Below, in pieces: positions 41,340 through 59,775 of a DNA stretch of 64,000 nt. The notes below the pieces were generated by a model. The model was not told the origin of the DNA. It did not search any database and worked only from the letters and a program-made list of their open reading frames with translations. This DNA is from Gloeobacter violaceus PCC 7421 (lineage in GTDB: Bacteria; Cyanobacteriota; Cyanobacteriia; Gloeobacterales; Gloeobacteraceae): contig NC_005125.1 of NCBI RefSeq assembly GCF_000011385.1, positions 2,852,001 to 2,916,000 of the forward strand. Reading direction: 5' to 3'. The position numbers and the translations under genes are program-made. The first letter of the stretch is position 1. Every line of letters starts with the position of its first letter.

Positions 41340-41410
41340 ATGCGGATAGCGCGCAGCACGGGAACCAGCCGGTAGGTTTCCAGGCGAAGGCGGCCGGGCT
41401 GCACAGTGAG
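41340..41410 (-). pseudogene. 71-bp fragment homologous to the island SNF2 helicase gene
   Basis: This stretch matches 59296-59366, inside the DrmD-like gene, over 71 bases with seven mismatches counted by eye. Both are in the same orientation. In the helicase frame it translates QPGRLRLETYRLVPVLRAIR. Nothing else of the helicase gene is present beside it, so it is a relic of another helicase copy or of a rearrangement with the island. It lies about 0.9 kb outside the left att copy. Confidence 0.8.
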
Positions 41411-41455
41411 TATGTTATAACATCTGTATTACGTGGGTGAGCGGAGGGAAAAGCG

Positions 41456-42108: not shown

Positions 42109-42348
42109 CCGACGAACTGCACGCAGGGCCAGGTTGAAACTGTAGGCTATTCTCAAGCATCTGGACGGAATTGCGATCTGATATCGAATTCACGTAGATA
42201 GACAGGAAATGGGACGGACGCGGTTGGCCACAGAGTAATCTTGCACCCGGAAGTCATGCTACTAATCTCCTGCGGTTTAGATACTGAAACAGCCTAAAAA
42301 GTGCCCCCGGATGGACTCGAACCATCGCACAAGGTTTAGGAAACTACA
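42109..42348. other. Short gap holding the left island junction
   Basis: Apart from the tRNA-derived repeat at 42303-42342 I see no gene here. The stretch between the Doc gene and the repeat is more AT-rich than the core genes and shows no recognisable integrase fragment. Confidence 0.5.
42303..42342 (-). repeat. Partial tRNA-Arg 3' end (distal att copy of the island)
   Basis: The first 29 bases are identical to 61184-61212, the acceptor, T-arm and variable region of the tRNA-Arg gene. The next 11 bases continue the match with two single-base indels up to the anticodon region. No D-arm or 5' acceptor strand is attached, so it is not a functional tRNA. Orientation and extent are those expected for the site left when an element integrates at a tRNA 3' end. 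Confidence 0.88.
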
Positions 42349-45300
42349 TCAAAGAGAGATCTCCAGTAATTGCATAAGATGCATAACCAGAGAGCCGCCG
42401 CGTGCAAGATCATTCGCCTTTAATTCAACTATCCTCCAGGCGGGATCAGCATCGCGAAGTCGCTCCCTGATGAAACGGTCGCGACGCAGGTTCTGTCCTT
42501 GGTGGAAACTGGCACCGTCGATGTAGATAGCAAGCTTTTTTTCTGCAACTGCAAAGTCAGCCAAAGAAATGGGGGGCTCTCCGGCATGTACTGCTATCGG
42601 AACTTGTTTTCGAGGGTGGAAGCCATACTCTTCAAAAAGCCGAAGAAATTTCAACTCAAGGGGCGACCCGACTTTTTCTGCGTAAGCTTCTAACCAAGGA
42701 TGCGGATCATCAATGTCACTCATTTGTAAATTTTGTCTAATAGGTGGCCCTTCGGCAAGTTGGTGGAGATCAGCAATTATCCGAGGCCAATGTAATAATT
42801 CATGAAATCGCTGGTTTTGATAAGACTTGAGGCAGCGATAGCAGGCAGTCTCACAACCCGTATGGTCCAAATGATCAATTGCGGCACGAGCAACAATATG
42901 CAATTCACTCGCGATTCGGCTTAAATATCCACTTCCTCCAATACTAGGATCGATAAAGCTTAAAGAAACCCAATTGAAGCGAGCGTTATCCTTGACAGCC
43001 TGCCAAGGACCTTCCAGTTCAAATTCAATCTCTGAACCATCTAGCATGTATACGTGTCGCATTCCAGTGCGCAGTGAAAATCCCAGCGAAAGCCCCCATG
43101 ATTGCAATCCCCGTTGTTCTACTGAACTGGGCACAGGAATAACCAAGCGCAATACTTCAGCCTTCAGCGCAGTGACGATTGCAAGGGGACGAAGTGCTGT
43201 TCCTGCCTGAGGACAGTCTTCGCGATGGCCATGTACATCTTGCTGAGAGTCTCGGGTGCGAACATTGCGTCGTTTGCTGCCGGCATCAAGCAGGCTTTGG
43301 GGAGTTAGCGAGCGCCCACAGCTACCACAAAGCAGATATCCTTTTGCATCAGGATGCAAGTAAGGCATTCCGTCATCTATCTCTTTTGGTGTGGGAGGAC
43401 GGCCCTCATTGAGCCAGCGAACCTCTTCTCCACGGCTCAGCCGTAAGGACCAGTCAGGTCCTACACTCCACCGGCCAACCACATCGCCGTCCCATTGGGG
43501 AAAAGTTTTTACAAGGTTGCCAGTTGCGTAACGATCTTCCTCATCCAGGATTGTGTTCTCGTTGGGCCTGGCGAGAAAACCGCCAAACTCAGCTGCTGGA
43601 ATTGGTTGCCCTGGCAGATCCGCCTGGCATCTGGGGCAGCGCGGATGCGCAGCATCGTAGCGTAATTGACAGGATTGGCAGAGGCGATAAGCCCAGTTCG
43701 GTCCTTCGTCTTTGGGATTCCATGGGGAAGCGTTGTCCAGTCCAATGACTTGCCAGCGCTTTGTACGGGCGTACACCTGAGCTTCAGGCTGGAACTGAGC
43801 AATCCCAAACCTCCGGGCAACTGTTACGGGATCTTCCTCGTGCGGATCCCCCAGTAAGCGCAAACTCGCAGGCTGGGTGGGAAACTCGTAGCCCGGCAGA
43901 ATACCAAACTCGGCAAACCTTCGCAAAGGATACCCCGCCGAACCATCGTCTGCTTCTTGCTGATTGCGTCGTCGTTCAGTCTCGATCCCCAGAAGACGGG
44001 CAACCATATCGCCCGCTTGAGCAGCGGCTCTTCTACCTGTGAGTGCTGCTGCATAAGTATCTAAAGCTCTCCTGAGTTCTTGTACTTGTCTGGCTGTGCG
44101 CTCCACAACATCCTGGATGCGCTCGCGTAGAGATTTCAGGTTATGGCGCAACTGGGAAGTGTCGAGCATTGCAGCAGGTAGTATGTCAACTCCCCAAGCA
44201 TCCTGCGCCATAGAGAGGGCATACTCTTGTTGGGCTGTGACTGATGCGATCAGAGCATCGACGGCTTGCTGATTTATTTCGCCAGCCGGAGACACGTACT
44301 CGACCATCTTGCCGGCCAGTCCTGGTTCGGCAGTACCAAAAGCAATGGCGTTGAGGTGGCGGAGAATAACATCGCGATTGCCCAGGGCCAGAGCCGGTGC
44401 TGGTACCTCGCCTGAGATCATCTCGGCAGGCTTGTCATAAAAATACTGGTCGTGGGGGGTGCTGCGGGCATAGCCGAGCACTAGACCAACACGGGTTCGT
44501 CGGCCTGCTCGCCCTCCGCGCTGAGCGTAGTTGTCAGGACGGGGTGGAACGTTTCGCAAAATGACCGCATCGAGACCACCGACATCGATGCCCATCTCCA
44601 GCGTTGGCGAGCAAGCGAGGAGATTGACTTTGGAGACTTCTGCCGATGCTTTAAAGTCGTTTTCGAGTTGAACCCGGATATCGCCAGGAATCTGAGCGGT
44701 ATGTTCTCGAGCTATTAGTGGAACGAACTGTTCCGAGTAGATGCGTCGTACCGTTCGGTTGTCTTCGGCATCAACCCATCGGATGAAGTATCCATGACAA
44801 CGTGGACAGGGAAAACGCTCAGGTGCCTCGGCAAGCACGAATCCACATACACGGCAATGCATACGCACATGAGCTGTAACAAGTTTTAGCCGGACTTGTT
44901 CCGCTTGCACCTGGAGCAGCCGTGCACGTTCGCGATAACCCAGCAGTTCAAATGCAACCAGATAACTCCCATCTTTCAAAAACTGTAAGAGCTCGACCAT
45001 GCGATCCACTGTCGGTGCGGCACCGCCAAAGCAGTTGATAAGATGCTTTAAAATGCGTTCAAGGCTAGGTCCTTTACCTCCAATACGCGGTCTGCGCCAG
45101 GCATTATTGAGTTTGATGCCCGATTCAACTTGAGTGGAATCTAAATAAGCTGCGGGATTTCCCTCCGAGGTGGCTGCATAGCCCTGGGGCCGCTTGACCC
45201 GCCTTTCCCACTCGGCGGCGCGCATGTAGGCTGGATAACTCGGGTGCGCCGGATGGAAGCGCAGCAGTTCGCGCGAAAGGCATCCGCGCACCCGCATCTC

Positions 45301-48012
45301 ATCTAGCAAGCATCGGCAAATGTGCTCCAATTGCGATAGTGTGACGCCTAGTGCTTTAGCCAGAGCACTCCCACGCGCCTGAACGTATTCACTCAATCGA
45401 TCGTAAGTGACACTGACAAGGCCGAGGTTAATCAGTGTGGCCCGATAACCGGCGTTGACAGCAATCTCATCGAGCAGTGGAGCTTCTTCCCAGACACGAA
45501 TGCGTTGCAGTGTTTCATCCGGCAGCCAGGAGTTATTTTCCTCCGGGACGTAGGGATTGTCCCGTTCGCGAACTCCTTCTTCGCCGAGCAATTCGACCAT
45601 TCTCTGAATAGTCAGCACTCCATGACCATTAAGTAGACGGACTATACGTCTTCGCATTCGATCATAACGGCTGGCAAAATGGATAAACCGAGCTTGGTGA
45701 GCTGCATCCTGACGACTATCGCTGAAGACCAGCAGCCGCTCCTTCCCATCATGATTCGGCCGGTTCTTGTTTTCTTCAGCTAAAGCCTCGACCAGTCCCT
45801 CTCCCATCACTTTGACCGCGGCAGAGGTACCTAGGGCAACTGGGGTAATCACATTGCGGCTGCCGGCAGAACCGCCACAGCACAAACATTGTGTACGGGC
45901 CGGGGCAAGGGTTGCTCGGAGTGGATAGGTTGTTGTATCAACGCTGAAAGCGAGGGTATGCGGATCGAAAGAGCCTTCGCGCACCAGGCGCTGCCGCATT
46001 TGAGTGGGCTGACGCCTGCTGCGACTGCGCTGTAGTGTGTTGTTGCCTGCTTCCTCTTCCTCTTCTTCAATATCCGCTGTCAGTTCAAATCGTGCTGGGT
46101 CGTAGAGAAGCCACTCATATTCCTCTGAATTGCTTGCACTTGGTTGCAGTGGTCCAGCAGCTGGATCATTGGGATTGCCACCGACAAAGCGCAGATAATC
46201 CGCTCCGCAGTTACGGCACAGGTACAGTGGTGCAGTGGATGCGCTACATTCGCAACGCTCCTCGCCCATCGGGTAAAGCTTCCCGCAGGTCGGGCTGACG
46301 CAGCGATGGAAACGCCAACCACCCCGCACAAAACGATGTATACGCAACCTCAGCACTCCGGGAATGTTTTCAGGTAGCGCCGCGCCAATACTGAGGGCTG
46401 CTCGCACCTCGCTCTCGATGTCAGCCTCCCTGCAGCCCTTCCGTTCGGGCACCTCAACTCGCACGCGCGCCACGAGCTGGCTGATGGACATGGGAGAGCC
46501 GATAAGCCACCGATTGAGATCCCACAGGAGCCGACAGCGACGAGTTGCTTGATCGAGAGGGGTGTCCGGGTTTTGCCCGCTTAGGGTACATAGTGCCTGT
46601 CTGACTGCTTCGGCGTCCGAAACATCGACTTCCTCGACAGCCGACCAGTGCAGTGGATACTGTGCTTCCCCCGGAATCTCGACATCCTGCAGTTGTTCAC
46701 CGAGGACGCGAATGGTTTGCGGTTCGGCTCCCGTCAGCTTGCTGAAAAAGTCTTGAACTGCTTCGTCGCGGAGCCGAACCAGTTCGGCGCGGGGGAGCTG
46801 TCCCTGCTCACCCACACTTTTGATGGTGGCCGAAGTACCCACCGGCAGCAGTTCGGGGTAGCGTCTTGCCCGCTGTGCTGCGGCCACATCGGCAAGCCAG
46901 TCGTGCCGGGCACGTCCTAGATGGGTCTTAAGCCGACGCACCAGCAGGGCAATGTTGCTTCCTAGCGTGCCGCGGTAGGTATGGACTTCATCGAGGACCA
47001 AAAAACGACAGCGATGATTGGCAAAGATGGCATCTCTGTCCGCCGGGCGCACCAGCAGGTACTCCAGCATCATGTAGTTGGTGAGCAGGATGTGGGGTGG
47101 ATTTTGCCGGAGTCTCTCCCGGTCGGCTTGCTTGGTCCCCCGGTCGTACTGCTCGACGGAGACGGCTCCTGACCAGCCCGATTCTTGTAAGTACTGCCGG
47201 ATGCGCTGGAGCTGATCGTTGGCCAGGGCGTTCATCGGGTAAACGAGGATCGCCGTCAGTCCGGGTTGTTTAAAGTGAACGGCATCTTCGATGGCGTTCT
47301 GGATGACCGGCAGCAGGAAAGTCTCGCTTTTGCCGCTCCCCGTTCCCGTGGTGACGACCAACGGCGATGCCTGTGGTCCCAACAAGTGAGCGATCCCCTC
47401 GGATTGGTGCAGGTAGGCGCGTTTGTTATTGGAACGCTTCTCCATCACCTGAGCCAGTTTCTGGTCGATGGGCAGTTCACGCCAGCGTTGGCCGTCTTTG
47501 AACGGCCGATGGGCTTGAAAAAACGGTTCTTGGGCTAAAAAGAGCGGCTCATCGAGTGCCTTCTCCAGAGCTTGCTTGAGTGCAGGGTCTTTTGCACGGA
47601 ATTCTGTGAGCAGGTAGTCGCGGTACCCTGCGATCACTTTATCGAGGGCGCGGATCGGGTGAAGGACGGTTGCCCGGGAAACCGATTGCTTGACAATCGC
47701 AGGCGCTATTTCCGGCGGCTCCAGGGCTTCGGGGCGAGGAGCAGTCTTGGGCTCGCTCGCAGAGCCATTGCGCCGGACAATCTCCTGAGAAAGTTGGTCT
47801 GCGAATCCGCCGGTGAGGGTGGCTGAATCGAGAACCTCCGCGAGTTCCAGAAAGCCCCAGCCCTCTGGAATGTCCGAAAAAAGTAAGGTGAGCTGTTTCT
47901 CGGTAAGCGCCTCTACACCGGTGCAATCTAGAACGACGAGACCCTGTCCCATCAGATGGCTGGCCGAAGTCAGAGCCGCATCGCCTTTTTGTAAGAGGTC
48001 TCTGAGTTTCAT
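42349..48012 (-). CDS. Giant DEAH-type helicase with DUF1998 and a C-terminal nuclease-like domain (DruE-like)
   Basis: This encodes 1887 residues. The N-terminal 80 residues (GQGLVVLDCTGVEALTEKQL) look STAS-like. Helicase motifs follow: TGTGSGKSETFLLPV (Walker A, about 226), YPMNALANDQL, VLDEVHTYRG (about 341) and QRGGRAGRRTRVG (motif VI, about 1167). Several zinc-type Cys clusters occur (CPRCHGYF; CQSCQLRYD), and CETACYRCLKSYQNQ near 1722 is the DUF1998 signature. The last 110 residues (ISLADFAVAEKKLAIYIDGA) resemble DUF559/Vsr-type PD-(D/E)XK nucleases, although the usual acidic residue before the IDG is Tyr. The DEAH-DUF1998 layout and size recall DruE of Druantia. The ATG at 48012 overlaps the UvrD stop. 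Confidence 0.85.
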   Translation of the reverse strand: MKLRDLLQKGDAALTSASHLMGQGLVVLDCTGVEALTEKQLTLLFSDIPEGWGFLELAEVLDSATLTGGFADQLSQEIVRRNGSASEPKTAPRPEALEPPEIAPAIVKQSVSRATVLHPIRALDKVIAGYRDYLLTEFRAKDPALKQALEKALDEPLFLAQEPFFQAHRPFKDGQRWRELPIDQKLAQVMEKRSNNKRAYLHQSEGIAHLLGPQASPLVVTTGTGSGKSETFLLPVIQNAIEDAVHFKQPGLTAILVYPMNALANDQLQRIRQYLQESGWSGAVSVEQYDRGTKQADRERLRQNPPHILLTNYMMLEYLLVRPADRDAIFANHRCRFLVLDEVHTYRGTLGSNIALLVRRLKTHLGRARHDWLADVAAAQRARRYPELLPVGTSATIKSVGEQGQLPRAELVRLRDEAVQDFFSKLTGAEPQTIRVLGEQLQDVEIPGEAQYPLHWSAVEEVDVSDAEAVRQALCTLSGQNPDTPLDQATRRCRLLWDLNRWLIGSPMSISQLVARVRVEVPERKGCREADIESEVRAALSIGAALPENIPGVLRLRIHRFVRGGWRFHRCVSPTCGKLYPMGEERCECSASTAPLYLCRNCGADYLRFVGGNPNDPAAGPLQPSASNSEEYEWLLYDPARFELTADIEEEEEEAGNNTLQRSRSRRQPTQMRQRLVREGSFDPHTLAFSVDTTTYPLRATLAPARTQCLCCGGSAGSRNVITPVALGTSAAVKVMGEGLVEALAEENKNRPNHDGKERLLVFSDSRQDAAHQARFIHFASRYDRMRRRIVRLLNGHGVLTIQRMVELLGEEGVRERDNPYVPEENNSWLPDETLQRIRVWEEAPLLDEIAVNAGYRATLINLGLVSVTYDRLSEYVQARGSALAKALGVTLSQLEHICRCLLDEMRVRGCLSRELLRFHPAHPSYPAYMRAAEWERRVKRPQGYAATSEGNPAAYLDSTQVESGIKLNNAWRRPRIGGKGPSLERILKHLINCFGGAAPTVDRMVELLQFLKDGSYLVAFELLGYRERARLLQVQAEQVRLKLVTAHVRMHCRVCGFVLAEAPERFPCPRCHGYFIRWVDAEDNRTVRRIYSEQFVPLIAREHTAQIPGDIRVQLENDFKASAEVSKVNLLACSPTLEMGIDVGGLDAVILRNVPPRPDNYAQRGGRAGRRTRVGLVLGYARSTPHDQYFYDKPAEMISGEVPAPALALGNRDVILRHLNAIAFGTAEPGLAGKMVEYVSPAGEINQQAVDALIASVTAQQEYALSMAQDAWGVDILPAAMLDTSQLRHNLKSLRERIQDVVERTARQVQELRRALDTYAAALTGRRAAAQAGDMVARLLGIETERRRNQQEADDGSAGYPLRRFAEFGILPGYEFPTQPASLRLLGDPHEEDPVTVARRFGIAQFQPEAQVYARTKRWQVIGLDNASPWNPKDEGPNWAYRLCQSCQLRYDAAHPRCPRCQADLPGQPIPAAEFGGFLARPNENTILDEEDRYATGNLVKTFPQWDGDVVGRWSVGPDWSLRLSRGEEVRWLNEGRPPTPKEIDDGMPYLHPDAKGYLLCGSCGRSLTPQSLLDAGSKRRNVRTRDSQQDVHGHREDCPQAGTALRPLAIVTALKAEVLRLVIPVPSSVEQRGLQSWGLSLGFSLRTGMRHVYMLDGSEIEFELEGPWQAVKDNARFNWVSLSFIDPSIGGSGYLSRIASELHIVARAAIDHLDHTGCETACYRCLKSYQNQRFHELLHWPRIIADLHQLAEGPPIRQNLQMSDIDDPHPWLEAYAEKVGSPLELKFLRLFEEYGFHPRKQVPIAVHAGEPPISLADFAVAEKKLAIYIDGASFHQGQNLRRDRFIRERLRDADPAWRIVELKANDLARGGSLVMHLMQLLEISL

Positions 48013-50132
48013 AGCAGTTCCTGTCTGCACCAGTAAGGAGCAACGAGACTATCGAGGAAGCGCGACGGCGTCGAGCGGGAGCCGCACACCATCAAGGCCC
48101 GCATTGCCCGCGAGCAGCCGACGTAGAAGAGTCGGCGCTGCTCGTCGAGGACGGTGGGCACCTCGTCGGGGGGGATGTAGGCATCCAGGTAAGGGATATT
48201 GCCTTCGTCGAAGCCTGCCACGACGACAAAAGGAAATTCCAATCCCTTGGCTGAATGAAGGGTCATCACCTTAATGTAGGGCTTGCGGATGTCGATTTCT
48301 CGGCGTGATACGAACTTGGCGTTCAAGTCGAGGCTATCGAGCTGTTTGGCGATGGCCATACCCATGTGGTTGCTCGGGCAGAGGACGGCGCTGCCGTGGA
48401 GGGGAAGGCGGAACTTTTGGGCTGCTGCAATCAAGAACTCGCGGATTGCGCTTACCTGGCCTTCGAAGTCGTCGGACAGCAAAATGGTAGGCGCATCGCC
48501 ACGGTGAGGGGAAGGATGTTGGTAGAGGCATTCTTCGTCCCCGGCTTCGCTGTTCTGAAGGATGGCGATGCAGGCACCGGCGATTTCCTCGGTGTTGCGG
48601 TAGTTGCGCTTGAGCAGCAGCGTTCTGCCCGCCACCTTGAGGTCGGCATGCACCTGCTTCCAGCTGAAACCGCGATGGTAGAGCGACTGGGAGGCGTCCG
48701 CCGTCAGGTAGACACCTCCCGGCGAGGTGGCCAGGCTCATCATGAAGCGCAATTTCACCGGCGGCAGATCCTGCGCTTCGTCGACAACGACGGCCTGATA
48801 AGGAGGCTGGGGAAGGCTTTCGACCAGATCCCTCGCCCTGGAGTGCAGTTGCTCCCAGGTGATGAGCTTCTTTTGGGCGAGCAGTTGGCTCCAGGTTTGA
48901 TAGACAGCCCAGATTGCTTCTCGAATGTTGGCCTTCAGGGGTGTACCGCGACCGCGCCGCTCGATCTCCAGGTACTGCTCAGGGGTTGTCAGTTCCCAGG
49001 CTTCGATGATCGTCCGGATCTCGCTCAACAAGTAAGGCACCCCGAGCCGCTTGAGCACTTCGAGGCGAACGCCACGGTCAAAAGCATTGGTGGCAGGGAT
49101 CGCGGTTGTTTTGAGCGCCTCTTCGAGCAGGACGACTGCCTCGTTATCTTCGACAATGTGGGGTTTGCCGTAGGTCTGGGAGAAATACTGGTAAGCCATT
49201 CGGTCGATGGTGCTTACCTCCGCGCCTGCCGTCGCCGCATTCTGGCCGAGTAGTTGTTCGAGCAGCTGTGCGGAGTAGTTGACCAGGGCGTTGGTGTAGG
49301 TCGTAAAAAGTACTGGACTATGGCCGGCATCGAGCAATTTCTTGACTCGATAGAGTGCAAGGGTGGATTTGCCAGTGCCCGGTCCTCCTTTGACGAGGAT
49401 AGGGCCGCTGCTCCCGAAGTCCCGCAGCTTCTCTTGTTCAGGATCGAGCTTGAGCAAAAAAGCAATCAAGTCGCCCTCGACGAAGCGCTCCAGATCCTCC
49501 GGCTGTTGCAGCACAAACTCCGGCTGAACGGCAATTTCCTCAATGGGGCGGGGGTAGAGATTATCGAGGAGGCGGCTGATCAGGTTGTTGGGCAGGGGGA
49601 GATCGAGAATCTGCTCGGAGGTGCGCACCGCCAGCACCTCGGACCAGTCCTCCTCTGGAATCTGCCATTGCTTGAGCAACTCCGGCGTCAGCTCGAAGGG
49701 GAGGGACGTAGTGACTCGGTTTTCTCTGGTAACGGTTTGCGGCAGCGACTCCGGCTCCTCGGGAATATAAACAGGGACAAGCACCGGCTCATCGGTTGCC
49801 TGGGGTTCGAGTAGGGCCGGGTCGGGAGGTGCGCCGGGCACTTCAAACTCCGGCAAACCCAGTTCGTAGGTGCTCTCATCTCGCTTGCGAATACTCAGAA
49901 GCTTGATCCAGCCGCTTCCGAAGCTGTAGATGAGCCGGTAATCACCCAGTCGGATGCGGTAGACGTTGTTCTTGAAGTCCTTGAGCCTTTTGATGTTGCC
50001 CTTGGCGGATACCGGATCTCGCTTGAGGAGCTTGATGGTGCGTTTGACCCTGTCCTGAATGGTTTGGGGAACATTGAGCAGTTCGTTCAGGAAGGTTTCG
50101 GTAAAGGACGTTTCCCACAGGGTTGCAGGCAT
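48009..50132 (-). CDS. RelE/ParE-like domain fused to a UvrD-type helicase
   Basis: This encodes 707 residues. Residues 1-75 look like a RelE/ParE-family toxin fold: ETFLNELLNVPQTIQDRVKR, then GNIKRLKDFKNNVYRIRLGD and YRLIYSFGSGWIKLLSIRKR. A linker of about 130 residues is followed by a superfamily 1 helicase: VKGGPGTGKSTLALYR (about 250), VVVDEAQDLPPVK (about 447), LKRNYRNTEEIAG and MTLHSAKGLEFPFVVVAGFD (about 627). Stand-alone RelE proteins cut mRNA on ribosomes; here the fold could be a sensor or an RNA-binding or nuclease part. It is translationally coupled to the giant helicase. Confidence 0.85.
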   Translation of the reverse strand: MPATLWETSFTETFLNELLNVPQTIQDRVKRTIKLLKRDPVSAKGNIKRLKDFKNNVYRIRLGDYRLIYSFGSGWIKLLSIRKRDESTYELGLPEFEVPGAPPDPALLEPQATDEPVLVPVYIPEEPESLPQTVTRENRVTTSLPFELTPELLKQWQIPEEDWSEVLAVRTSEQILDLPLPNNLISRLLDNLYPRPIEEIAVQPEFVLQQPEDLERFVEGDLIAFLLKLDPEQEKLRDFGSSGPILVKGGPGTGKSTLALYRVKKLLDAGHSPVLFTTYTNALVNYSAQLLEQLLGQNAATAGAEVSTIDRMAYQYFSQTYGKPHIVEDNEAVVLLEEALKTTAIPATNAFDRGVRLEVLKRLGVPYLLSEIRTIIEAWELTTPEQYLEIERRGRGTPLKANIREAIWAVYQTWSQLLAQKKLITWEQLHSRARDLVESLPQPPYQAVVVDEAQDLPPVKLRFMMSLATSPGGVYLTADASQSLYHRGFSWKQVHADLKVAGRTLLLKRNYRNTEEIAGACIAILQNSEAGDEECLYQHPSPHRGDAPTILLSDDFEGQVSAIREFLIAAAQKFRLPLHGSAVLCPSNHMGMAIAKQLDSLDLNAKFVSRREIDIRKPYIKVMTLHSAKGLEFPFVVVAGFDEGNIPYLDAYIPPDEVPTVLDEQRRLFYVGCSRAMRALMVCGSRSTPSRFLDSLVAPYWCRQELL

Positions 50133-50342
50133 ACTGTTCTCCCTCGATGCCAGGTTGAGAGCACTGGCAGTGATGATATGTACCGGAATTCTTAGCGAAC
50201 CGGCCGGTGAAGGTCCAAAAACTTTAGCATATTCTTACAAAGAGTACCGGCAGTCGCAGAGCGTCGTCCGCTGTTGACTGCATTTTCTATGGCGGGATTA
50301 ATTGAGTGCCTGACGGGTGATCGCACGGCTGGTAGCCCGCAG

Positions 50343-51488
50343 CTACCGACCAGGAACCAGTGCGAATCCACGAGGGTTTTGCAGTACATATGAGGAGCCC
50401 TCCTTCAAGAGATTGCCCCTGCAGATGACCTCGGCGTCAGATCCGTGTGCACGAATTGCAAGTTCGTATTCTTTAAGAGAAAGACTGATTTTGACGTTTT
50501 TCCGTCTATCGTCGACGATACAAGCCACAGTCACCGTGCCGATGGTTTCATTCTCCGGCAACTGCAACTTTACGACTCTTCCACGCACCTCAAAATCTTC
50601 ATAGATGCCTTTGCGCAGTAAATTCGCAGCCGCTTCAATCGCAGGCATGAGACTTGGAGAAAGGTGGACCTTCTGAGGTGCGTCCGGTCGCGGGAGTGAA
50701 GCAGACCAATTCAGCGACACTTCGACACCCTGATTTCCCGCACTTTCATTGAGCCCGAGAATTGCGTCGCAGAGGTTGGCGCTGACACCCGCCCTAACGA
50801 CCTTCCAGAAAATTTCTGCATCTTGTGCGGTGCGCACCTGCTTGGCTGCTCCCTCGACAGCAGCCAGGGCACTCATCAATTTTTCGGTCACCCGTCTTTC
50901 GAAAGCTTCATGAACGGAAGCATGGGCTGTGGATGCAGAAAGCTCTCTTGGAGCTGAAGATAGTGGGGAGATAATATTCAGAATGTAGCTTCCTTCCTGA
51001 GGCTGCGCCAGTCGCAATCTGCGGATGTATTGGCTTGCCTGTTGAGGTTTGCGGTCGTGGAAAGCCTTCGATTCAACGGCAGAGCAGGCAGCGTAGGCAA
51101 GTGCATTCCTGGCGTGCTTGTGGAGATTAATGCCATCTTCTAGAGGAAGGCTTCCGTCTTCAGCAGCGAATGGATGGTTCGCACGGAAACGAACGACGTC
51201 AACCGAGACAGTTACCAAGTCAAATAAGATCTCTTCTTGTGAGCGATTCTCGGCAATTGCAAGGGTCTGCAGAACATCGTGGATTCGATCTGAAAAATCC
51301 CGGGCTTCAGGATCAGTAGGCACCAGCACTTCGAACGCCTGTTCAGGAGAACCGTTTCCAAGAACCCAGATAGTCGCCCTCTCGCCGAAGTGGCGTTGCT
51401 CGTGCCAGTGTTTCTTGCCGAGATAGGCAACAACCTGATGCGGTTGCACCGACTGCAGAACTTTGGTGTCCAGAATATCCGCTTTCAT
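50343..51488 (-). CDS. Unknown 381-residue protein of the defence operon
   Basis: No known domain is recognised. The N-terminal part (residues 1-150) has alternating strands and helices (VVAYLGKKHWHEQRHFGERA; RIHDVLQTLAIAENRSQEEI) and ends near LHKHARNALAYAACSAVESK. The middle (about 190-250) is helical. The C-terminal third is strand-rich (VTVACIVDDRRKNVKISLSL). It overlaps the preceding DUF4365-like gene by four bases, so the two are coexpressed and probably form a complex. About 210 bases without a gene follow before the UvrD gene, where a second promoter may lie. Confidence 0.7.
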   Translation of the reverse strand: MKADILDTKVLQSVQPHQVVAYLGKKHWHEQRHFGERATIWVLGNGSPEQAFEVLVPTDPEARDFSDRIHDVLQTLAIAENRSQEEILFDLVTVSVDVVRFRANHPFAAEDGSLPLEDGINLHKHARNALAYAACSAVESKAFHDRKPQQASQYIRRLRLAQPQEGSYILNIISPLSSAPRELSASTAHASVHEAFERRVTEKLMSALAAVEGAAKQVRTAQDAEIFWKVVRAGVSANLCDAILGLNESAGNQGVEVSLNWSASLPRPDAPQKVHLSPSLMPAIEAAANLLRKGIYEDFEVRGRVVKLQLPENETIGTVTVACIVDDRRKNVKISLSLKEYELAIRAHGSDAEVICRGNLLKEGSSYVLQNPRGFALVPGR

Positions 51489-52108
51489 GGGTGCCCATTC
51501 TGTACAATGCGGGACATAATGCCTTTCAAACCGTTGATATCAAAGACATTCGTGCGTGGGAGCCTGACTGTTATTTCGTCACTATTTTGAGTGGATGGCC
51601 AGTTGCGCAAAGATTCCCAGTAGCCACAGCGTTTCATGCACAGTGCTTGTTCAGAATGTTGCAGCCATGTACTGGGATCGTCGTTGTCAGGCACCAGGAC
51701 GAGGATCAGGATGATAGGAATCGTTTGCCTGGGATCGATCAACTCCTCGTAATTTTTGACTGCAAGCTTGTTGTACACCACATGGGTTTGGGAGAGGGTG
51801 GCGTTCCAGGTGCACTTCACCTGGGCGTTGAGGTGCGGATTGCGCTTGGTGCCGTGGACGCCCGGTGCCGCAATCTGTATATCGATGCCTTGATTGTCAA
51901 GAAGCCTCGATGCCCTCACGATGGAGTACCCGGTAGCTGCAACGACTGCATCGACGTATGCATAGCTGAACTCCTCTTTACAAAGGTTCAGGTTCACTCC
52001 CCAAGAGCCTCTACGTTGTTCGCCGGTGGTTTTCCAGTGTAGTACACGGTTATTCTTCATGTATAGCTCCGGGCCAGTTTTTTGCAGCGTGTCTTTGTAG
52101 TAGAACAT
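51485..52108 (-). CDS. DUF4365-like protein (PD-(D/E)XK nuclease-like)
   Basis: This encodes 207 residues. The segment KEEFSYAYVDAVVAATGYSI, then LLDNQGIDIQIAAPG and LNAQVKCTWN, matches the E...D..GID.Q...QVK pattern of DUF4365, which is believed to have a PD-(D/E)XK nuclease core (Asp of GID; Gln and Lys of QVK). DUF4365 proteins occur in defence islands. It starts nine bases after the methylase stop and overlaps the next gene by four bases. The ATG at 52060 (MKNNRVLHW) is another possible start. Confidence 0.75.
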   Translation of the reverse strand: MFYYKDTLQKTGPELYMKNNRVLHWKTTGEQRRGSWGVNLNLCKEEFSYAYVDAVVAATGYSIVRASRLLDNQGIDIQIAAPGVHGTKRNPHLNAQVKCTWNATLSQTHVVYNKLAVKNYEELIDPRQTIPIILILVLVPDNDDPSTWLQHSEQALCMKRCGYWESLRNWPSTQNSDEITVRLPRTNVFDINGLKGIMSRIVQNGHP

Positions 52109-52117
52109 GGGTACTTC

Positions 52118-55100
52118 TCAGGAGGTTTTTCTGGGATTTTTCCGACGTGCTTTTCCAGACTCAGCCGCTCTTGGCGCTGATCTTCTGTCCCCTTGGTAAG
52201 AATCCATGCCCGGGATCTGAAGAACCTTGTGATTCGAGGTGGTCTCGCTATCTGCAGGATCTAGCAAGGGTATGTCTATAACGGGTTGAGGCAGGTTCTC
52301 GTTGAGTGGGATGTCCCAGTAAGGGTCGTATTTTTTGGTGAACGCTCCCAAGCCGATTTCCTGCAGTTCGTCGAACTTGGCAAGGCAAAGTTTGGGAGCT
52401 TTTGGATAGCTTCTGTGGCTGAAGCTAGAGAGAATGTGGGCATACTGTTCGCGCTCGAGACCATAGGCATCAGCTACTACAGCATCAATTGCTGAGCGGA
52501 CTTCCCAGCGTTCGTCGTCAGATTCAAGGACAGGCCAAGTGAACGGGGGCTTGGGCTCGCGCCATTCATCGCATACTTGTTCGTGCCAGAGAGTCTCATA
52601 GCCAGGGTGGTTGCTAACGAGTCGAAGAGAAGAATGAACGCATAAATTATTCTGTGATGCTAAATCACTAATTGGTGTATTATCCATTATGAACTTAGAG
52701 ATTGTTTTGCTACCAACTCTCAAACGCAAATACCAATCAAAGACAAAAGAATTGCATACAGCTACAGCGCCTAAAGAGAGACGGTTGGGACGCTTTTGAG
52801 GGCATCCCTCAATGGGTAGCGAGTTAGTCGCAGTAGTGCCTGGTGTAAGTATGGTGAATATCGAAGTTCGTTCATCTGTTGCACGCGCAGACATGCGATA
52901 AGCGGCTCTGAAGTATCTGGATAGCTCCAAAACCCGGGGACGATCATAAAGATTATTGAAAGGTATAGTTAACGTTTTTGCTCCAGTCCATAAATCTGTA
53001 TACTGATGGATGGTTCCCGGCTGATGATGGATCAGCGCTTCATCTTCTTTAGACCACGTTCGACCACAAGGTTTGCTGTACTCGATTCGCCAACGATCAT
53101 CCGTAGCATTTAACTCTCTTCGTATTGACCAGTATGTATTCTCCGAATATTTTTTCCAGCTAATAGAATTTCCAAAAATCGTTTCCGCGCATTTCATGTC
53201 GGATACACTAGTGTACTCCTGGAATATTAAGCTTTCCGAGTCCATGACCTCGATTATATTAGGATCGTACAAATAATAATATGGATCTTTATTGGCAGAA
53301 AATAACCATGAATCATCATGAAGATAGAATTGTGCAGGAAACCTTTTCTTTTCTTTGGGCTCAGAATTTCTTATTATGACGGGTGTAAATTTCCAACTCT
53401 TATGTATTTCGAAGAGTGAATACTTATTCTCGAACGAGAAATAGCTTAGGATTTCTGCTTTGTTCAGCAGTTTGCGCCTCAATTGCCTCAATGATTGACT
53501 GACATGAAGAGAACTAGGTAAAACCATTGCAAATAGACCGTTTACCCTAAGTAGGCTGAATAAACGATCAACAAATGACGCAAAAATATCAGCGTGTCCA
53601 GAACCAAAGCCTACTAAGTCGCTTTGTGCATCTGGATTAAGTAGGCTTATTATTTTCCCCATCCTGTCTTCTTCTAGAGATGCTAGCAGCCAGGCATTCC
53701 AAGCTGATGAGCCTTTGTAACTTTCTTCGAGATCTATGCGCTCATCACTTGAAGTGACTTCCAAAAAGCGAAAGTCAACAGCACCCATGTACTCAGGTAG
53801 CTCTAAGTTGCTTTTACTCCAAGGTGGATTGCCCAGTAAGACATCAAAGCCATTTCGATAGTCGCAGTTGCTATGAGGAAAGAATACTTCTACAAAGGTA
53901 AGATCGAAAGGTAGGGCTAGTGGCAATTTCTCGATATGTTTTTGCTGAAAAACTTCCTCGATTGTTGTTAGATTTTCTTGCATTGCCATACCCTTGGCAA
54001 TCATTCTTATCAGCCTTTCTTCTTTGTTTATGTCGGCAGGAAGAGCGGAAGTAGACGCAACCGCATGTGCCAACCGTGCGTAAGCTGAGTCATCACATTC
54101 TGGACCGCTAAGCATTCCTCCACCAGCCCAAGCTGCAGCAACGATCATGAATGGCTCTAAAGCTTTATCCAACCTTGTCTTTGCTGCCTGCTTTGCCTCA
54201 ATTTCAGATAAAGTTGCACCAACACTTTCTTCTAAGTCATGTACATGCCTTAACGCATTGCTCAATGCTTTAGTAAAACCTTCTTTTAACCCAATACTTA
54301 ATAAATCATCCATTTGCTTTTGAGAGCCTGGATACCTTAGTAAATCTTTAAGAAATGGACCTGCTAGCGAATCGCCTAATACCAAACGATGATCCAGAAA
54401 TGTTAGTGGTAAGCCTTCCGCGTGAGATTCTATCCACAATGACAGTTTTGCTAGTTCGACTGCTAGCGGATTCTTGTCTACACCATACAAGCAATGAACA
54501 GCAATGAGTCGTCGACACATTGCTTCTGCCTTCCGTTGGGATAAACCTATTTCCAAACCCTCTGGCGCTCTGCTCGGCAAATATTTCAACAGCTCATCAT
54601 TTGGATCGGGCAAATCTGCCACCCGCTGCTGAAACAGCTTCGCTCCCTCAAGTGCAGCCTCTCTTTGCTGCTCATCCTCCGCACTTTCTGCTCGCTTCTC
54701 CGCTGCCATCGCTAATTCATCGCATAGACGGCAAGCTTCATACAGCTTCTCACCCAAGAATCGGCAGGCTTCCACTAGAAAATGCCCAGACCCCATTGCC
54801 GGGTCGCAGACTTTCAATTTCAAGATTTCCAGGGGTTTCGGATCGCTTTGTGGACTGCGCTCTGCCACCTGTGGTCCTAAAGTCTCCTGCACTAAAAATC
54901 GAACAAAGGAATGGGGCGTGTAGTAGGAACCACTCGCCTTGCGGCCAAGGCCCACCCGCAGATAGAACCGGCCCGGCGCAATCGCCTCGATCCACTCGAC
55001 TTTAGTTTTCTTGCCACGCCCGGAAGTCTCCTCCTCCTGGCTTTCCTCTGCGTCCTCTTCCTCCGCCTCGTCCTCAGAATCGTTCTTCACTGCTGCCGTG

Positions 55101-56446
55101 ACACGGTATTTCTCTCCCTGGTCAATCGGAACGACGACCTCCAGCTTTTGCCGCCGCAACCGGCACATCGGCTCATCGGCAATTCCCGGCTCCAGTTCGA
55201 GTAGAGCTTCGTAGACGCGGCCCAAATCTTCGACATCCAGGGGGCCGTAGTGAACCCGCTCTCGGGCAACCGTTCCCTTCTTCAAAGTCCAGAGCAATCG
55301 GTCGAGCAGGTAGGCAACTGCCCGTTCTCCCCAGGCCAAATCCGAGAGGATTGGGGTTGCGTGCGCCCCGAACAACGACCCTCCCAGAGGCCGGATGTTC
55401 AACTCCGTGCACTGCAAGCCCTCGGCAAACATCCTGAACAGCGAGCGTAGTCCCCGCTCCAAGAGTTGCCCTGTCTCTGCACCCTCATCCAGCGCCATCC
55501 GCACATACCGTGCCAGGGCCACACTCGGCGAGAAGCTGTTGCGCCACAGGCTGGTCGAAGCGAACGAGAATGACCGGGCCGGGTCGTCGCTCGATTCCAG
55601 CTTCAAGATGAACAGCAGCCGATAGATCGTGATCAGCCCTTCGCGCCACAACTCCTTCGCCAGCCGCGCTCGGTCGGCAAACTCACTGAGCTTTTCTCGG
55701 TTGGCCGGATGATCCAGCACCTCCTGCACGAATAGCTCGACCGCCTCGCGGGCCTGCTTGCGCAGATCTTTGGTCACCCGCGCCTGCTGCAGGCGGGCCT
55801 TATCCACCAGACCGGGTACCGCTTTCACCCCGGCCGGTGAAGCGAGAGCTAGCAGCAAGCGCAAAGAATCGGGCACCTCGCGGCTGCGCTTCCAGTTTGC
55901 GTCGATGGGGATAATCACTTGCGAGTCGGGCCGGGCCGGATCTGAGAGCAACAGCCGCAGCTCAACACCGTTGGTCAAGAGCCCCACCCGCTCACTGCAG
56001 GCGAGCAGCACACGCTGAGCGATGCGCAGGTGGCTGAAGCGGTAGGCGGCACCCCGTTTTGCGGGCGCATCCAGGTCGATGTCGAGATCTGTGGTCCAGA
56101 TCCGCAACTTGGAAGAACCATCGGCACTGATCAACAAATGACCGCCCGCTTCCAGACCTTCTCGCGTCTGAACCGGCTCCGCTGCCTCCAGCCGGTCGTA
56201 ACCCAACCGGGGGAGGAGCGGATCGATCACCTGGTTGCGAATTCGAATGGCGCCGCTTTTGCCGACCAACTCGCGCAGCTTGCGCCGGTAACCGTCCCAA
56301 AACTCCCGCAGCGCCTGTGCCTCGGTCCCGGTCGCTTTGGAGAGAAGCTTCTCCCTATTCAGTTCCTTCTCCAACTCGAAGCGCACAAACGGTTCCGGCA
56401 GAGCGGGGCCGATAAAGGAGCACTCCTGCAGAAAATCAATGGGCAT
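52118..56446 (-). CDS. Large adenine-specific DNA methyltransferase (Eco57I/DrmMI-like)
   Basis: This encodes 1442 residues. The AdoMet motif CDPAMGSGHFLVEA is near residue 547 and the catalytic motif LLGNPPWSK near 872, the gamma-type adenine methylase order. The N-terminal 500 residues resemble the regulatory or nuclease-like part of type IIG enzymes but lack an obvious PD-(D/E)XK motif. The C-terminal 400 residues should recognise the target. In class 1 DISARM the methylase DrmMI pairs with DrmD, as here. Bases 52600-54600 are clearly more AT-rich than the rest. The start at 56446 overlaps the helicase gene by 11 bases. Confidence 0.85.
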   Translation of the reverse strand: MPIDFLQECSFIGPALPEPFVRFELEKELNREKLLSKATGTEAQALREFWDGYRRKLRELVGKSGAIRIRNQVIDPLLPRLGYDRLEAAEPVQTREGLEAGGHLLISADGSSKLRIWTTDLDIDLDAPAKRGAAYRFSHLRIAQRVLLACSERVGLLTNGVELRLLLSDPARPDSQVIIPIDANWKRSREVPDSLRLLLALASPAGVKAVPGLVDKARLQQARVTKDLRKQAREAVELFVQEVLDHPANREKLSEFADRARLAKELWREGLITIYRLLFILKLESSDDPARSFSFASTSLWRNSFSPSVALARYVRMALDEGAETGQLLERGLRSLFRMFAEGLQCTELNIRPLGGSLFGAHATPILSDLAWGERAVAYLLDRLLWTLKKGTVARERVHYGPLDVEDLGRVYEALLELEPGIADEPMCRLRRQKLEVVVPIDQGEKYRVTAAVKNDSEDEAEEEDAEESQEEETSGRGKKTKVEWIEAIAPGRFYLRVGLGRKASGSYYTPHSFVRFLVQETLGPQVAERSPQSDPKPLEILKLKVCDPAMGSGHFLVEACRFLGEKLYEACRLCDELAMAAEKRAESAEDEQQREAALEGAKLFQQRVADLPDPNDELLKYLPSRAPEGLEIGLSQRKAEAMCRRLIAVHCLYGVDKNPLAVELAKLSLWIESHAEGLPLTFLDHRLVLGDSLAGPFLKDLLRYPGSQKQMDDLLSIGLKEGFTKALSNALRHVHDLEESVGATLSEIEAKQAAKTRLDKALEPFMIVAAAWAGGGMLSGPECDDSAYARLAHAVASTSALPADINKEERLIRMIAKGMAMQENLTTIEEVFQQKHIEKLPLALPFDLTFVEVFFPHSNCDYRNGFDVLLGNPPWSKSNLELPEYMGAVDFRFLEVTSSDERIDLEESYKGSSAWNAWLLASLEEDRMGKIISLLNPDAQSDLVGFGSGHADIFASFVDRLFSLLRVNGLFAMVLPSSLHVSQSLRQLRRKLLNKAEILSYFSFENKYSLFEIHKSWKFTPVIIRNSEPKEKKRFPAQFYLHDDSWLFSANKDPYYYLYDPNIIEVMDSESLIFQEYTSVSDMKCAETIFGNSISWKKYSENTYWSIRRELNATDDRWRIEYSKPCGRTWSKEDEALIHHQPGTIHQYTDLWTGAKTLTIPFNNLYDRPRVLELSRYFRAAYRMSARATDERTSIFTILTPGTTATNSLPIEGCPQKRPNRLSLGAVAVCNSFVFDWYLRLRVGSKTISKFIMDNTPISDLASQNNLCVHSSLRLVSNHPGYETLWHEQVCDEWREPKPPFTWPVLESDDERWEVRSAIDAVVADAYGLEREQYAHILSSFSHRSYPKAPKLCLAKFDELQEIGLGAFTKKYDPYWDIPLNENLPQPVIDIPLLDPADSETTSNHKVLQIPGMDSYQGDRRSAPRAAESGKARRKNPRKTS

Positions 56447-59400
56447 GGGCGGTCTCGGGAACAATCATGAGCACTCCCAGAAGTACCATCTCGGGTTCAC
56501 CTAGAGTAGCGCGGGCATCGATGAGCGCAAGCCGCTGCCGGTAAAGGCGCAGCACGCCTTCGGCCTCGCTGCGTAAGCGGGGCAGCTGGGTGCCGTCCGC
56601 CGCGAAGGCCGCCAGTTTTGCGACCGGCTCGCTCATAGATCCCCAGTTGGGATCTGCGGGTACAGATGCCGCCGATGCCGCCGTTCGGAGGGGGGCAAAT
56701 AAATTCGCCTGCTGCAACTGCGGGACGATTTCGCTCACCCGCTGCTCAAACCAGCTCTGCTGGCGCTCCTGCTCCTGTTGCGTCTCCTGCTGCTGCTGAC
56801 CGGAGAAAACCTGGGCCATCGGTTGAAAACCTTCACTGGCAACACGTCGCGCCTTGCCCTGGGCAGCTGTGAACCAGCCTACGAAGTGATTTTTGTAGAC
56901 ATCGGTCGTTTTAATGGCTTGGCCGGGGTCCGCCAGTGGGAGCCAGTCTTCGGCCGTCTGATAAAACTCCGGCTCACTCTTGGCGGTTGAACAGACCGCC
57001 AGAACCCTCTCAAACTCCCGCCCGGCACCGCTGGACACCCGGCCCAGGAAGGTAAACAGCAGCGTCGGCTCGCTCACCTTCCCCTTTACGGCACTGACCC
57101 GCGGGTCTTGGCCGACGTGGATATCTTGTCCGAAAGATAGGTTGCGCACCCGATCCAAGGCTCGTCGCACCAGCGGATGGGCGCGGCCGAGAAAACCGAC
57201 CGGAAGACCGGCCGGATCGCGCATCAGATCGAGGTTGGTAGTCAGGCGCAACGTGCGGGAAGCGGCGTCGTAACCGGGGAGATCGTCGAGGCCGTAAGTC
57301 CAGTCCGACGGCAGTCGAATCTGCTGGATCTCCGGGTGGATAGTCGGTTGTACGCTGCCGCCGCCAAGCCGTACTGCATCCGCGACGAACTGGGCGAGAT
57401 CGACCGTGCCCGCCCGATGGCCCAGCGCGCGCGCTTCGCTCGCCTCCCGGACCAGGTCTTCCCCGGCGTTCATGCCGAGATTGCCCAGCCAGGTGTTGGT
57501 CTGCGCCGCCTTCTCGAAGCTCTTCAAGCTGCGGTCCACTTCCTCCAGCAGTTCGCGCGTCGCCTCGTCCGCGCCTTCGTCTTCTTTGGCCTCCGTCAAG
57601 TCGAAGAGCGTATCTTCCGCCTCGAACAGGCGCGTGTCCTCGTCCATCAATCCCTTGAGCAACCGAATCTCCCCGGCCTCGGTGGAGGTGTTCAAGCCCA
57701 GCGTGTTCGGCACGAACGTCAATCGTGCCCGCTGCTTTTCGTATTTGACGATGAGACGCAGCAAAATCCGCTCCTCAAAAGTCCCCCGCAAGAAAAGATA
57801 CCGAACGATCGGATCGTGCTGCTGCCCGTAGCGATCGATGCGGCCGTTGCGCTGCTCCAGGCGGTTTGGGTTGAAGGGCAACTCCAGGTGGATGAGCTGG
57901 TGGCAGCGCTGGTGCAAGTTCAACCCTTCCGCCGCCGCGTCGGTGCTCACCAGAATGAGGCCGTCCTCACTGCGGAAGCGCTCCGTCGTCCCAGTCCGCA
58001 TTTTCTCGTCGTCCTCGCCGCTCATCGTCAGAACATCTCGAAAGCCTGCCTGCTTGAGAGCCCGTACCGCCGCCTGCTGGGTATCGATGTATTCGGTGTA
58101 GACGAGCACGTTCGCTCTCGGCTCCTCCGCCCGAATCGCCTGGATGACCTGGATGAACTGGTCCAGCTTCGGATCTTGCTCAAGGGCCTCGCCGGCCAGG
58201 TGCACCAGATTGTCCAGCGCTTCGACCAGACTTGAGAACTTGGCGACTTCCCGTGAACCGCCGCGCACCTCGCGCTCAAGGCTAGCGAGCTGCTCCGCCA
58301 GATCTTCCATCTCCAGGAGCGACTGCGCCTCTTCTTCCTCAGCACTCAGCGATCCGAAGCGTTCCAGCTTGCGGTTGTAGTCGCGCAGGGTTCTGAGGCG
58401 CTGGCGGCGGCGCTCCTGGTTTTCTACGCCCTCACTTAAGAACGCCTGGAATCGCTCGGCAACCACACTCAACGTCCGCTTGCAGGCGGCCACTGAGGAG
58501 ACGCTGCGCTTCAGCAGCGCGATGAAGGCCAGCACGTCGCTGTAGTTGCGGTTTTTAAACGCCCGGCGCAACTGAGGGGCGAGTAGTTCCAGCAAGGCCC
58601 GTTGCAATTCGATAAATCGAGAGTGTGCGTTGGGCAGCGGGATCACCGGGCAGGGTTTCACCTGACGCTCCCGGAAAAGCGGTTGGCCGGTACTGGCATC
58701 TTTGATGTGGCTTTTCAACCTGCGCACCACATGGGCGCGGTACCGTTCAGGGCGCAGGCTGCCTTGGCCATCGACCAGCGAGGGGTCCAGCAGTTCACAC
58801 AGCGATGCAAAAGAACGGTCACTGCCGTCGTGGGGCGTAGCGGTGGCCAGGATAAAAGCGTCACACTGCCGGGCCAGGACTTCGGCCAGACGGCGGCGCT
58901 GGGAGTCCTCGCGCTCATTGGAACCCAGGTCCATGCAGTGGTGGGCTTCATCGATCACGACCACGTCGTAGCTGGCCCGCTCCAACTGGTCCAGGATGCG
59001 CTCCTGCTTGAGAAAATCGATGGAGACCAATCCCAAAGAGATGTGATCGAAGGGGTTGGCGCCCAGCTCCGCGCCCCGCCGCACCTCCTCCAGCTTTGCC
59101 CTGTCGATCACTTCCAGGCGCAAACCAAAGCGCTCGGACATCTCCACCTTCCATTGCTCCAGCAGCGGTCCCGCCGGACAGACCACGAGGATCCGATGAG
59201 CAATGCGCCGGGCCATCAGTTCCGTAATCACCAGACCCGCCTGAACAGTTTTCCCCAGGCCGACCGCATCCGCCAGCAGCAGCCGCACACGGCTCATGCG
59301 GATAGCCCGCAGCACGGGAACCAGCTGGTAGGGTTCCAGGCGCAGGCGACCGGGCTGAACAGCGAGCAGGGCATTCGGCCCGAGGGCCTGCTCCAGTAGA

Positions 59401-59636
59401 AAAGCCTGGTGATAAACCAGCCAATTGCGCAGGGGAGCTGCTTTATCCGGGCGCAAATCGCGCTCAATCGGGTTGATCTCCTCAAAAGGCGACAACAGAT
59501 CCAGCTCCTGCCCCAGTACCGCACCTTCCAACCCACGCAGACGATAGAGAGTCTGTGGGCCGAGGCTATCGGCCGTCACCACTGCCCAGCGCAACCCACG
59601 GGCCTGCACTTCCGTACCCGGCAGAAAGACGCTCAC
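56436..59636 (-). CDS. SNF2-family helicase, DrmD-like
   Basis: This encodes 1066 residues. Motifs: LLADAVGLGKTVQAGLV (Walker A, about 124-140), VVVIDEAHHCMDL (DEAH, about 227), then the C-terminal helicase half with STDAAAEGLNLHQRCHQLIH and NGRIDRYGQ (about 597). The last 350 residues have no recognised domain. The layout agrees with DrmD, the SNF2 helicase of class 1 DISARM, and the methylase follows directly. I prefer the GTG at 59636 (GGAG six bases upstream) over a TTG at 59648. It is the first gene of the operon; its promoter must lie in the 140 bases before TnpB. Confidence 0.85.
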   Translation of the reverse strand: MSVFLPGTEVQARGLRWAVVTADSLGPQTLYRLRGLEGAVLGQELDLLSPFEEINPIERDLRPDKAAPLRNWLVYHQAFLLEQALGPNALLAVQPGRLRLEPYQLVPVLRAIRMSRVRLLLADAVGLGKTVQAGLVITELMARRIAHRILVVCPAGPLLEQWKVEMSERFGLRLEVIDRAKLEEVRRGAELGANPFDHISLGLVSIDFLKQERILDQLERASYDVVVIDEAHHCMDLGSNEREDSQRRRLAEVLARQCDAFILATATPHDGSDRSFASLCELLDPSLVDGQGSLRPERYRAHVVRRLKSHIKDASTGQPLFRERQVKPCPVIPLPNAHSRFIELQRALLELLAPQLRRAFKNRNYSDVLAFIALLKRSVSSVAACKRTLSVVAERFQAFLSEGVENQERRRQRLRTLRDYNRKLERFGSLSAEEEEAQSLLEMEDLAEQLASLEREVRGGSREVAKFSSLVEALDNLVHLAGEALEQDPKLDQFIQVIQAIRAEEPRANVLVYTEYIDTQQAAVRALKQAGFRDVLTMSGEDDEKMRTGTTERFRSEDGLILVSTDAAAEGLNLHQRCHQLIHLELPFNPNRLEQRNGRIDRYGQQHDPIVRYLFLRGTFEERILLRLIVKYEKQRARLTFVPNTLGLNTSTEAGEIRLLKGLMDEDTRLFEAEDTLFDLTEAKEDEGADEATRELLEEVDRSLKSFEKAAQTNTWLGNLGMNAGEDLVREASEARALGHRAGTVDLAQFVADAVRLGGGSVQPTIHPEIQQIRLPSDWTYGLDDLPGYDAASRTLRLTTNLDLMRDPAGLPVGFLGRAHPLVRRALDRVRNLSFGQDIHVGQDPRVSAVKGKVSEPTLLFTFLGRVSSGAGREFERVLAVCSTAKSEPEFYQTAEDWLPLADPGQAIKTTDVYKNHFVGWFTAAQGKARRVASEGFQPMAQVFSGQQQQETQQEQERQQSWFEQRVSEIVPQLQQANLFAPLRTAASAASVPADPNWGSMSEPVAKLAAFAADGTQLPRLRSEAEGVLRLYRQRLALIDARATLGEPEMVLLGVLMIVPETAHAH

Positions 59637-59775
59637 AAAACTCTCCAAACAAGCAGTTTAGGATTATCAGTCTATTCGCTTCCCTCAAACACACGAGATC
59701 TCACCTCAGTCTTTCGTTTATATAGGGTGATTTCCCCGCTTTGACAAAAACAGGGCAATATGATAATTTGTCCAT

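Follow-up and report, generated by a model that had tools for sequence, protein, structure and literature searches.

ARMADA, a very recently described class of anti-phage defence, combines a YprA helicase (ArmC), a BrxHII-like helicase (ArmA) and a PglX-like methylase (ArmB), to which type II adds ArmD, a GajB-like helicase fused to RelE, in a gene order published as strictly A-B-C-D (Bell et al. 2025 preprint, PMC12458937). ArmC is defined there by a C-terminal Vsr-type nuclease and by inserted BrxA-like, beta-barrel zinc and MarR-like domains. The E. coli system gives non-abortive protection that requires all four genes and is killed or weakened by mutation of the Walker motifs of ArmC or ArmD or of the NPPW motif of ArmB, and its authors described ARMADA as the missing link from DISARM to Druantia (PMC12458937). 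We analysed a six-gene locus in a stretch of 64,000 nucleotides (the window) of the Gloeobacter violaceus PCC 7421 genome, which is a single contig of 4,659,019 bp. This locus had first looked like a hybrid of DISARM and Druantia. We are confident that its core is instead an ARMADA-type defence carrying a nested pair of cargo genes, PDC-M02A and PDC-M02B (hereafter M02A and M02B, together M02AB), and we consider it quite likely that it represents a separate, little-described ARMADA lineage, borne on a tRNA-Arg island, with the M02AB cassette lodged in a cargo slot that separates armB from armD.

Gene content and identity of the core

All six reading frames were open and leftward, in the order claimed by the initial annotation:

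56436..59648, minus strand: ArmA, BrxHII/RapA-like SF2 helicase, 1070 aa (1066 aa with the start at 59636), with Helicase_C, ResIII and SNF2 Pfam matches
52118..56464, minus strand: ArmB, PglX/DrmMI-like adenine methyltransferase, about 1442-1448 aa, ATG at 56446
51485..52108, minus strand: cargo gene 1, M02A, DUF4365 protein of the PD-(D/E)XK nuclease type (PADLOC 5e-50; DUF4365 2e-27)
50343..51488, minus strand: cargo gene 2, M02B, 381 aa (PADLOC 5e-114)
48009..50132, minus strand: ArmD, GajB-like UvrD helicase with an N-terminal RelE/ParE domain (about 49863-50132)
42349..48030, minus strand: ArmC, YprA/DruE-like DEAD helicase with an MZB/DUF1998 zinc domain, 1887-1893 aa, ATG at 48012

The short overlaps, with ATG starts, were found as annotated, 11 bp between ArmA and ArmB, 4 bp between M02A and M02B (51485-51488) and 4 bp between ArmD and ArmC, as was a gap of 210 bp (50133-50342), in which neither a sigma-70-like promoter nor a terminator was found. 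The proposed domains (SF2/SNF2 helicase, Eco57I-type methylase, DUF4365, ParE/RelE-UvrD and DEAD-Helicase_C-MZB(DUF1998)) were borne out by Pfam. The best PADLOC E-values of the six proteins ranged from 5e-31 to 2e-119, far past chance expectation. ArmA matched DrmD (4e-114) and BrxHII (5e-79), while ArmB matched DrmMI (5e-91) and the Pfam family Eco57I, as an Eco57I-type N6-methylase, with a DPAMGSG motif and an intact NPPW motif. ArmD matched UvrD in Pfam and GajB in PADLOC, its ParE_toxin match reached 23.4 bits (cut-off 23), and its Walker A motif (residue 249) and VVVDEAQ motif (residue 448) were intact. For ArmC, the matches were DEAD (7e-21), Helicase_C (3e-9) and MZB (3e-8) in Pfam and DruE (2e-119) in PADLOC, the TGTGSGK and DEVH motifs were intact, and several CxxC motifs were also visible.

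The top PADLOC names were thus DrmD, DrmMI and DruE, from a 2023 library that is older than ARMADA, and they would suit a subtype of DISARM or Druantia. However, none of the six proteins resembles DrmB, DrmC or DruA-D/F/G/H/M. DISARM class 1 unites DrmA, a separate DrmB and DrmC with DrmD and DrmMI, and no match to DrmB or DrmC was found among the scanned proteins; PADLOC gave no phospholipase D match in any of them, in agreement with the absence of DrmC noted at the outset. Druantia unites DruE with DruH, with DruA-D or with DruM-F-G, and DruE-type similarity was all that was seen. In the trees described below, the window ArmC grouped with the ArmC proteins of ARMADA, and E. coli DruE3 formed a long outgroup. 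We therefore dropped the DISARM or Druantia subtype, whose required partner genes are missing, as very improbable.

Comparison with ARMADA showed that the four larger genes are of the ArmA, ArmB, ArmD and ArmC types, a four-gene match to that class, with 27% identity to the E. coli counterpart for ArmD and 25% for ArmC. The locus of E. coli ATCC 8739 (used in PMC12458937) reads A-B-C-D, and that of the window A-B-M02A-M02B-D-C. The initial annotation was right that genes of the DrmD and DrmMI types are joined to a DruE-type helicase in a set that is neither DISARM nor Druantia, and PADLOC recovered these three types. Its proposal of an unnamed new hybrid gives way to the exact match of the gene set with ARMADA (PMC12458937). 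Its alternative, in which the 210-bp gap would separate two neighbouring systems, was dropped because core genes flank this gap on either side: ArmD and ArmC continue the core past it, and the foreign genes, M02A and M02B, lie upstream of it.

ArmC lineage and apparent exchange of ArmD

An ArmC alignment, used for a genome-wide scan, provided 80 loci. ArmC trees were made with FastTree (83 rows) and with IQ-TREE under a C20 mixture (35 rows). They placed the window ArmC in a clade of its own, together with members from Pseudanabaena, Calothrix, Anaerolineae, Fischerbacteria, Acidobacteriota, Planctomycetes and Myxococcota; in the IQ-TREE tree this clade had eight rows (Shimodaira-Hasegawa-like approximate likelihood ratio test, 100). 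Its stem equalled the type II stem in length. The window ArmC was outside the sampled type II clade (8 rows), and the sampled type I clade (14 rows) had a support of 100 without it. Approximately unbiased tests rejected neither a sister position to type I (p = 0.394) nor one to type II (p = 0.147). A further deep ArmC clade beyond the sampled types I and II was formed by loci L078, L083, L085, L091, L102 and L108.

Comparison with cyanobacterial loci whose ArmC is of the type I clade showed that the window ArmD is about 47-57% identical to theirs, whereas the identity falls to about 25-35% for ArmA, ArmB and ArmC. Because of this difference, ArmD seems to pass from one ARMADA lineage to another within the cyanobacteria. 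Stand-alone ArmD-like RelE-UvrD fusions, with no ArmA-C neighbour in the flanking DNA retrieved, were also seen in cyanobacteria (L059, L061-L065). A paper on RelE/ParE defence toxins does not mention helicase fusions.

Two regions of the window ArmC were delimited in addition:

47758..48012, minus strand: N-terminal extension of about 85 aa (predicted local distance difference test, pLDDT, 79)
42352..42678, minus strand: C-terminal Vsr/DUF559-like motif region, a predicted nuclease, with the conserved columns S-x2-E ... DF ... DG

Cyanobacterial A-B-(D)-C loci have this N-terminal extension in whichever of the two deep clades their ArmC falls, and the remaining ArmC N-termini that were listed lack it. 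Its identity as an antitoxin or STAS domain of a known kind was considered and rejected, as it gave no Pfam match and no PDB fold match; its single weak PDB sequence match, over 22 residues, was to a type I restriction-modification specificity subunit.

The cargo slot between armB and armD or armC

The loci were annotated with purpose-built hidden Markov models, and intervals of 500 bp or more were counted as filled. The interval between armB and armD or armC was filled in 29 of the 30 bacterial loci that start with A-B and lie outside type II, with a length of 0.8-4.3 kb (median 1.8 kb). In the C-A-B loci, filling was found in 1/38 of the C|A and 1/33 of the A|B intervals; elsewhere it was found in 0/5 (B|C of archaea), 3/10 (type II), 7/23 (A|B of the A-B-first loci) and 1/10 (D|C). 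Fisher tests of the slot against the other intervals gave p values from 5e-5 to 6e-17 with the loci treated as independent, which they are not wholly, since the cargo is near-identical in L039, L113 and L117; most other cargo differs. The cargo was as follows:

Window: DUF4365 plus OB fold
L060: PIN plus Septu PtuA/PtuB (PtuA, 5e-156)
L118: AbiD (3e-75)
L073: GmrSD-type
L076: PDC-S27 (5e-205)
L072: HEPN-RES
L075: MqsA-like antitoxin plus IrrE
L099, L153: Schlafen
L113, L114, L117: XisH/XisI with TumE or PIN
L039, L085, L192: PIN
L112, L197: DUF3368
L196: HepT
L122: Uma2
L110: DUF2887
L038: DUF559
L158: sacsin/NOV_C
Non-defence or mobile: L193, radical SAM; L070, nucleoside hydrolase; L111 and L200, transposase fragments

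No family match was obtained for the cargo of L148 and L168 and for parts of that of L078, L085 and L153. On contigs from viral collections, ARMADA loci of type II order (L153, L158, L168) also hold genes between armB and armC, including an 1834-aa sacsin/NOV_C protein and a Schlafen-type protein.

In the window, the aligned M02A has the invariant residues D71, D76 and QxK (Q96, K98). The AlphaFold2 model of M02B had a pLDDT of 80.8, and its C-terminal OB fold (residues 294-381) matched the folds of SSB, PriB and RPA with Z of about 8-9.5, in a PDB fold list that covers the OB fold only and not the N-terminal 290 residues. Neither the M02A profile nor that of M02B led to a useful match in PDB sequence searches, and our literature search found no paper that combines DISARM, Druantia and DUF4365, nor any on PDC-M02. 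A short M02B of about 185 aa, in which the middle is gone and both ends are kept, occurs on plasmids of the Nostoc/Tolypothrix type, often beside DUF4365; together they make a minimal two-gene form. M02B was also found in two M. abscessus prophages. In Rhizohabitans, M02AB (L120:21990-23728) lies directly beside, and not within, a C-A-B ARMADA locus.

M02A and M02B could be obligate parts of one six-gene system in this ARMADA lineage, for instance as a sensor and an extra nuclease, and thus not exchangeable. The distance of 9 bp between M02A and armB, the overlap inside the pair, the common strand and a low guanine-plus-cytosine (GC) content like that of ArmB would agree with this. However, no sampled ARMADA locus other than that of the window holds M02AB in the slot, the nearest ArmC relatives have DUF559, GmrSD, HEPN-RES, MqsA/IrrE or AAA genes there, and M02AB is found in many genomes as a closely linked pair with no ARMADA (Gluconobacter and Methylobacterium plasmids, other cyanobacteria, viral contigs). 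An obligate role is unlikely and, by the slot census, is not our leading reading.

A bolder joint proposal, somewhat less likely than not, is that the window lineage is a third ARMADA type and that A-B-first ARMADA loci have a dedicated, nearly always filled slot for interchangeable and often complete other defence systems (Septu, AbiD, GmrSD, PDC-M02, toxin-antitoxin pairs), which would be released to serve as back-up effectors once ARMADA is overwhelmed or inhibited. That the cargo does work as a functional back-up is nearly an even call. The junctions between cargo and core often overlap or are separated by a few bases (L060, L072, L075, L076, L078), which fits co-expression.

The slot could also be a tolerated insertion site at the boundary of an A-B and a D-C operon, which collects toxin-antitoxin cassettes and mobile pieces that do not cooperate with ARMADA. 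Some slots do contain genes that run against the core genes (L038, L070, L077, L111), and toxin-antitoxin cassettes are typical insertion passengers. Most cargo is nevertheless co-directional with these short or overlapping junctions, scanning of the cargo found a defence, toxin-antitoxin or nuclease domain in most of the slots that it covered, and A-B-first loci have a filled A|B interval in only 7/23 cases. Selfish or accidental cargo is a possible explanation, if a somewhat doubtful one.

From E. coli ARMADA and the domains present, we infer a core mechanism of methylation-guided discrimination followed by helicase-nuclease attack. ArmB would methylate host DNA and, with ArmA as a translocase, mark or inspect DNA; unmethylated invading DNA would be attacked by ArmC, whose YprA-type 3'-5' helicase is followed by a predicted Vsr-like nuclease at the C-terminus, and also by ArmD, a UvrD helicase with a RelE RNase domain. 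The phage DNA would be destroyed and the cell would survive. M02B may be a nucleic-acid sensor whose OB fold binds nucleic acid, probably single-stranded, and unleashes the predicted M02A nuclease. M02AB would then be expressed together with ARMADA and serve as its auxiliary or back-up effector, by analogy with BrxU, which is encoded on pEFER as a nested accessory effector of BREX between brxC and pglX (PMC8565348), and with the auxiliary or back-up nucleases of BREX and BREX-related (BR) systems (PMC12839542).

Several points weigh against this reading. The transfer of the mechanism from E. coli is an extrapolation, because neither the gene order nor the ArmC clade agrees with type II as published and the identities of ArmD and ArmC are low. 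The Z values of the M02B match (8-10) are also reached by common arrangements, and the match covers residues 294-381 only. As toxin-antitoxin genes abound in cyanobacteria, the filling of the slot could partly be insertion tolerance, and a few slots contain metabolic or other non-defence genes (L193, L070) or transposase fragments (L111, L200), as accidental cargo would predict. If the slot is functional, the armB|armD/C interval would provide a search rule for new anti-phage cassettes, several of which may be among the cargo without a family match.

The tRNA-Arg island and comparison with described systems

The ARMADA locus lies between two direct repeats:

42299..42342: left direct repeat, a copy of the tRNA-Arg 3' end, identical over 29 bp (42303-42331), 7 bp from the armC stop
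61180..61223: right direct repeat, the 3' end of tRNA-Arg(CCT), from the repeat comparison
61182..61254, minus strand: tRNA-Arg (CCT), the integration site; the same tRNA is at the empty site in a same-genus genome (L218)
59776..61137, plus strand: TnpB-like protein (IS605 OrfB/Cas12f-like), the one island gene recognised beyond the operon
41336..41470, minus strand: ArmA relic of about 44 aa, 52% identical, with one stop, outside the island beside a ferredoxin-like open reading frame

The repeats are identical over 29 bp and 91% identical over 44 bp, and the runner-up match in the window was 10 bp. Alignment of two genomes of the same genus showed synteny up to window position 41410, which resumed from 61180 in one of them, and in a sister genome the DNA that flanks the repeat on its left joins the tRNA end directly, which gives the empty site. 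The insert, from about 42303 to 61183 (18.9 kb), contains only ARMADA, its cargo and the TnpB-like gene; no integrase was recognised among its genes. The GC content of the island genes is 0.51 to 0.62, as against 0.63 in the flanks, where a photosystem I psaF gene is located; the close relatives are cyanobacteria. Similar tRNA-bounded elements carry E. coli ARMADA (PMC12458937). The ArmA relic of the window forms the upstream end of the ferredoxin-like frame (41063-41404), and two sister genomes (L218, L219) have an ArmA relic of 43-51 aa (81-84% identical) at the same locus, beside a ferredoxin-like gene. Relics at one locus in three genomes of the genus imply that ARMADA genes have come and gone there. 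A short Fic/Doc-family protein is encoded just outside the left repeat (41683-42108, plus strand), and a dispersed repeat of about 200 bp (61378-61578 and about 38358-38571) has at least 40 copies in this genome and in two same-genus genomes.

New here are the separate ArmC lineage, the gene order, the cargo slot, the apparent ArmD exchange and the island with its empty site. The ARMADA class would thus be wider than published, with an extra deep helicase lineage, another gene order, an ArmD that seems to move between lineages within cyanobacteria and a position that collects unrelated effectors.

The window shares with DISARM class 1 a DrmD/DrmMI-like pair, but it lacks DrmB and DrmC and its DUF1998 module is fused to a helicase. 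It shares with Druantia a very large DEAD-DUF1998 helicase, which is of a different clade and is not accompanied by other Dru genes. With ARMADA type II (E. coli NCTC 12900 and ATCC 8739; PMC12458937) it has in common the ArmA-D types, the RelE-UvrD fusion, A-B as first genes, a DUF1998 helicase with a putative C-terminal Vsr-like region and a tRNA-delimited mobile island. It differs by the order A-B-x-D-C instead of A-B-C-D, by the nested M02AB, by an ArmC that is shorter at the C-terminus (1893 versus 2113 aa) and has the 85-aa N-terminal extension, and by the position of this ArmC outside the sampled type II clade. The cyanobacterial ARMADA loci with a type I-clade ArmC (Pseudanabaena, Phormidium, Hydrococcus and others) have the order A-B-[cargo]-(D)-C and the ArmC extension in common with the window, whose ArmC is nevertheless in another deep clade.

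PDC-M02, a candidate pair of PADLOC-DB, is present in the window with both genes in the same order and with the same overlap, but the pair stands alone elsewhere and is nested inside ARMADA here. BREX with nested effectors (PMC8565348, PMC12839542) is likewise a PglX-type methylase operon that hosts exchangeable GmrSD, PIN, HEPN, Schlafen and PD-(D/E)XK effectors, whereas the window has no BrxC or PglZ and the slot of ARMADA is specifically the armB|armD/C interval. This parallel points to a shared logic, in which a methylase-based defence would carry its own back-up.

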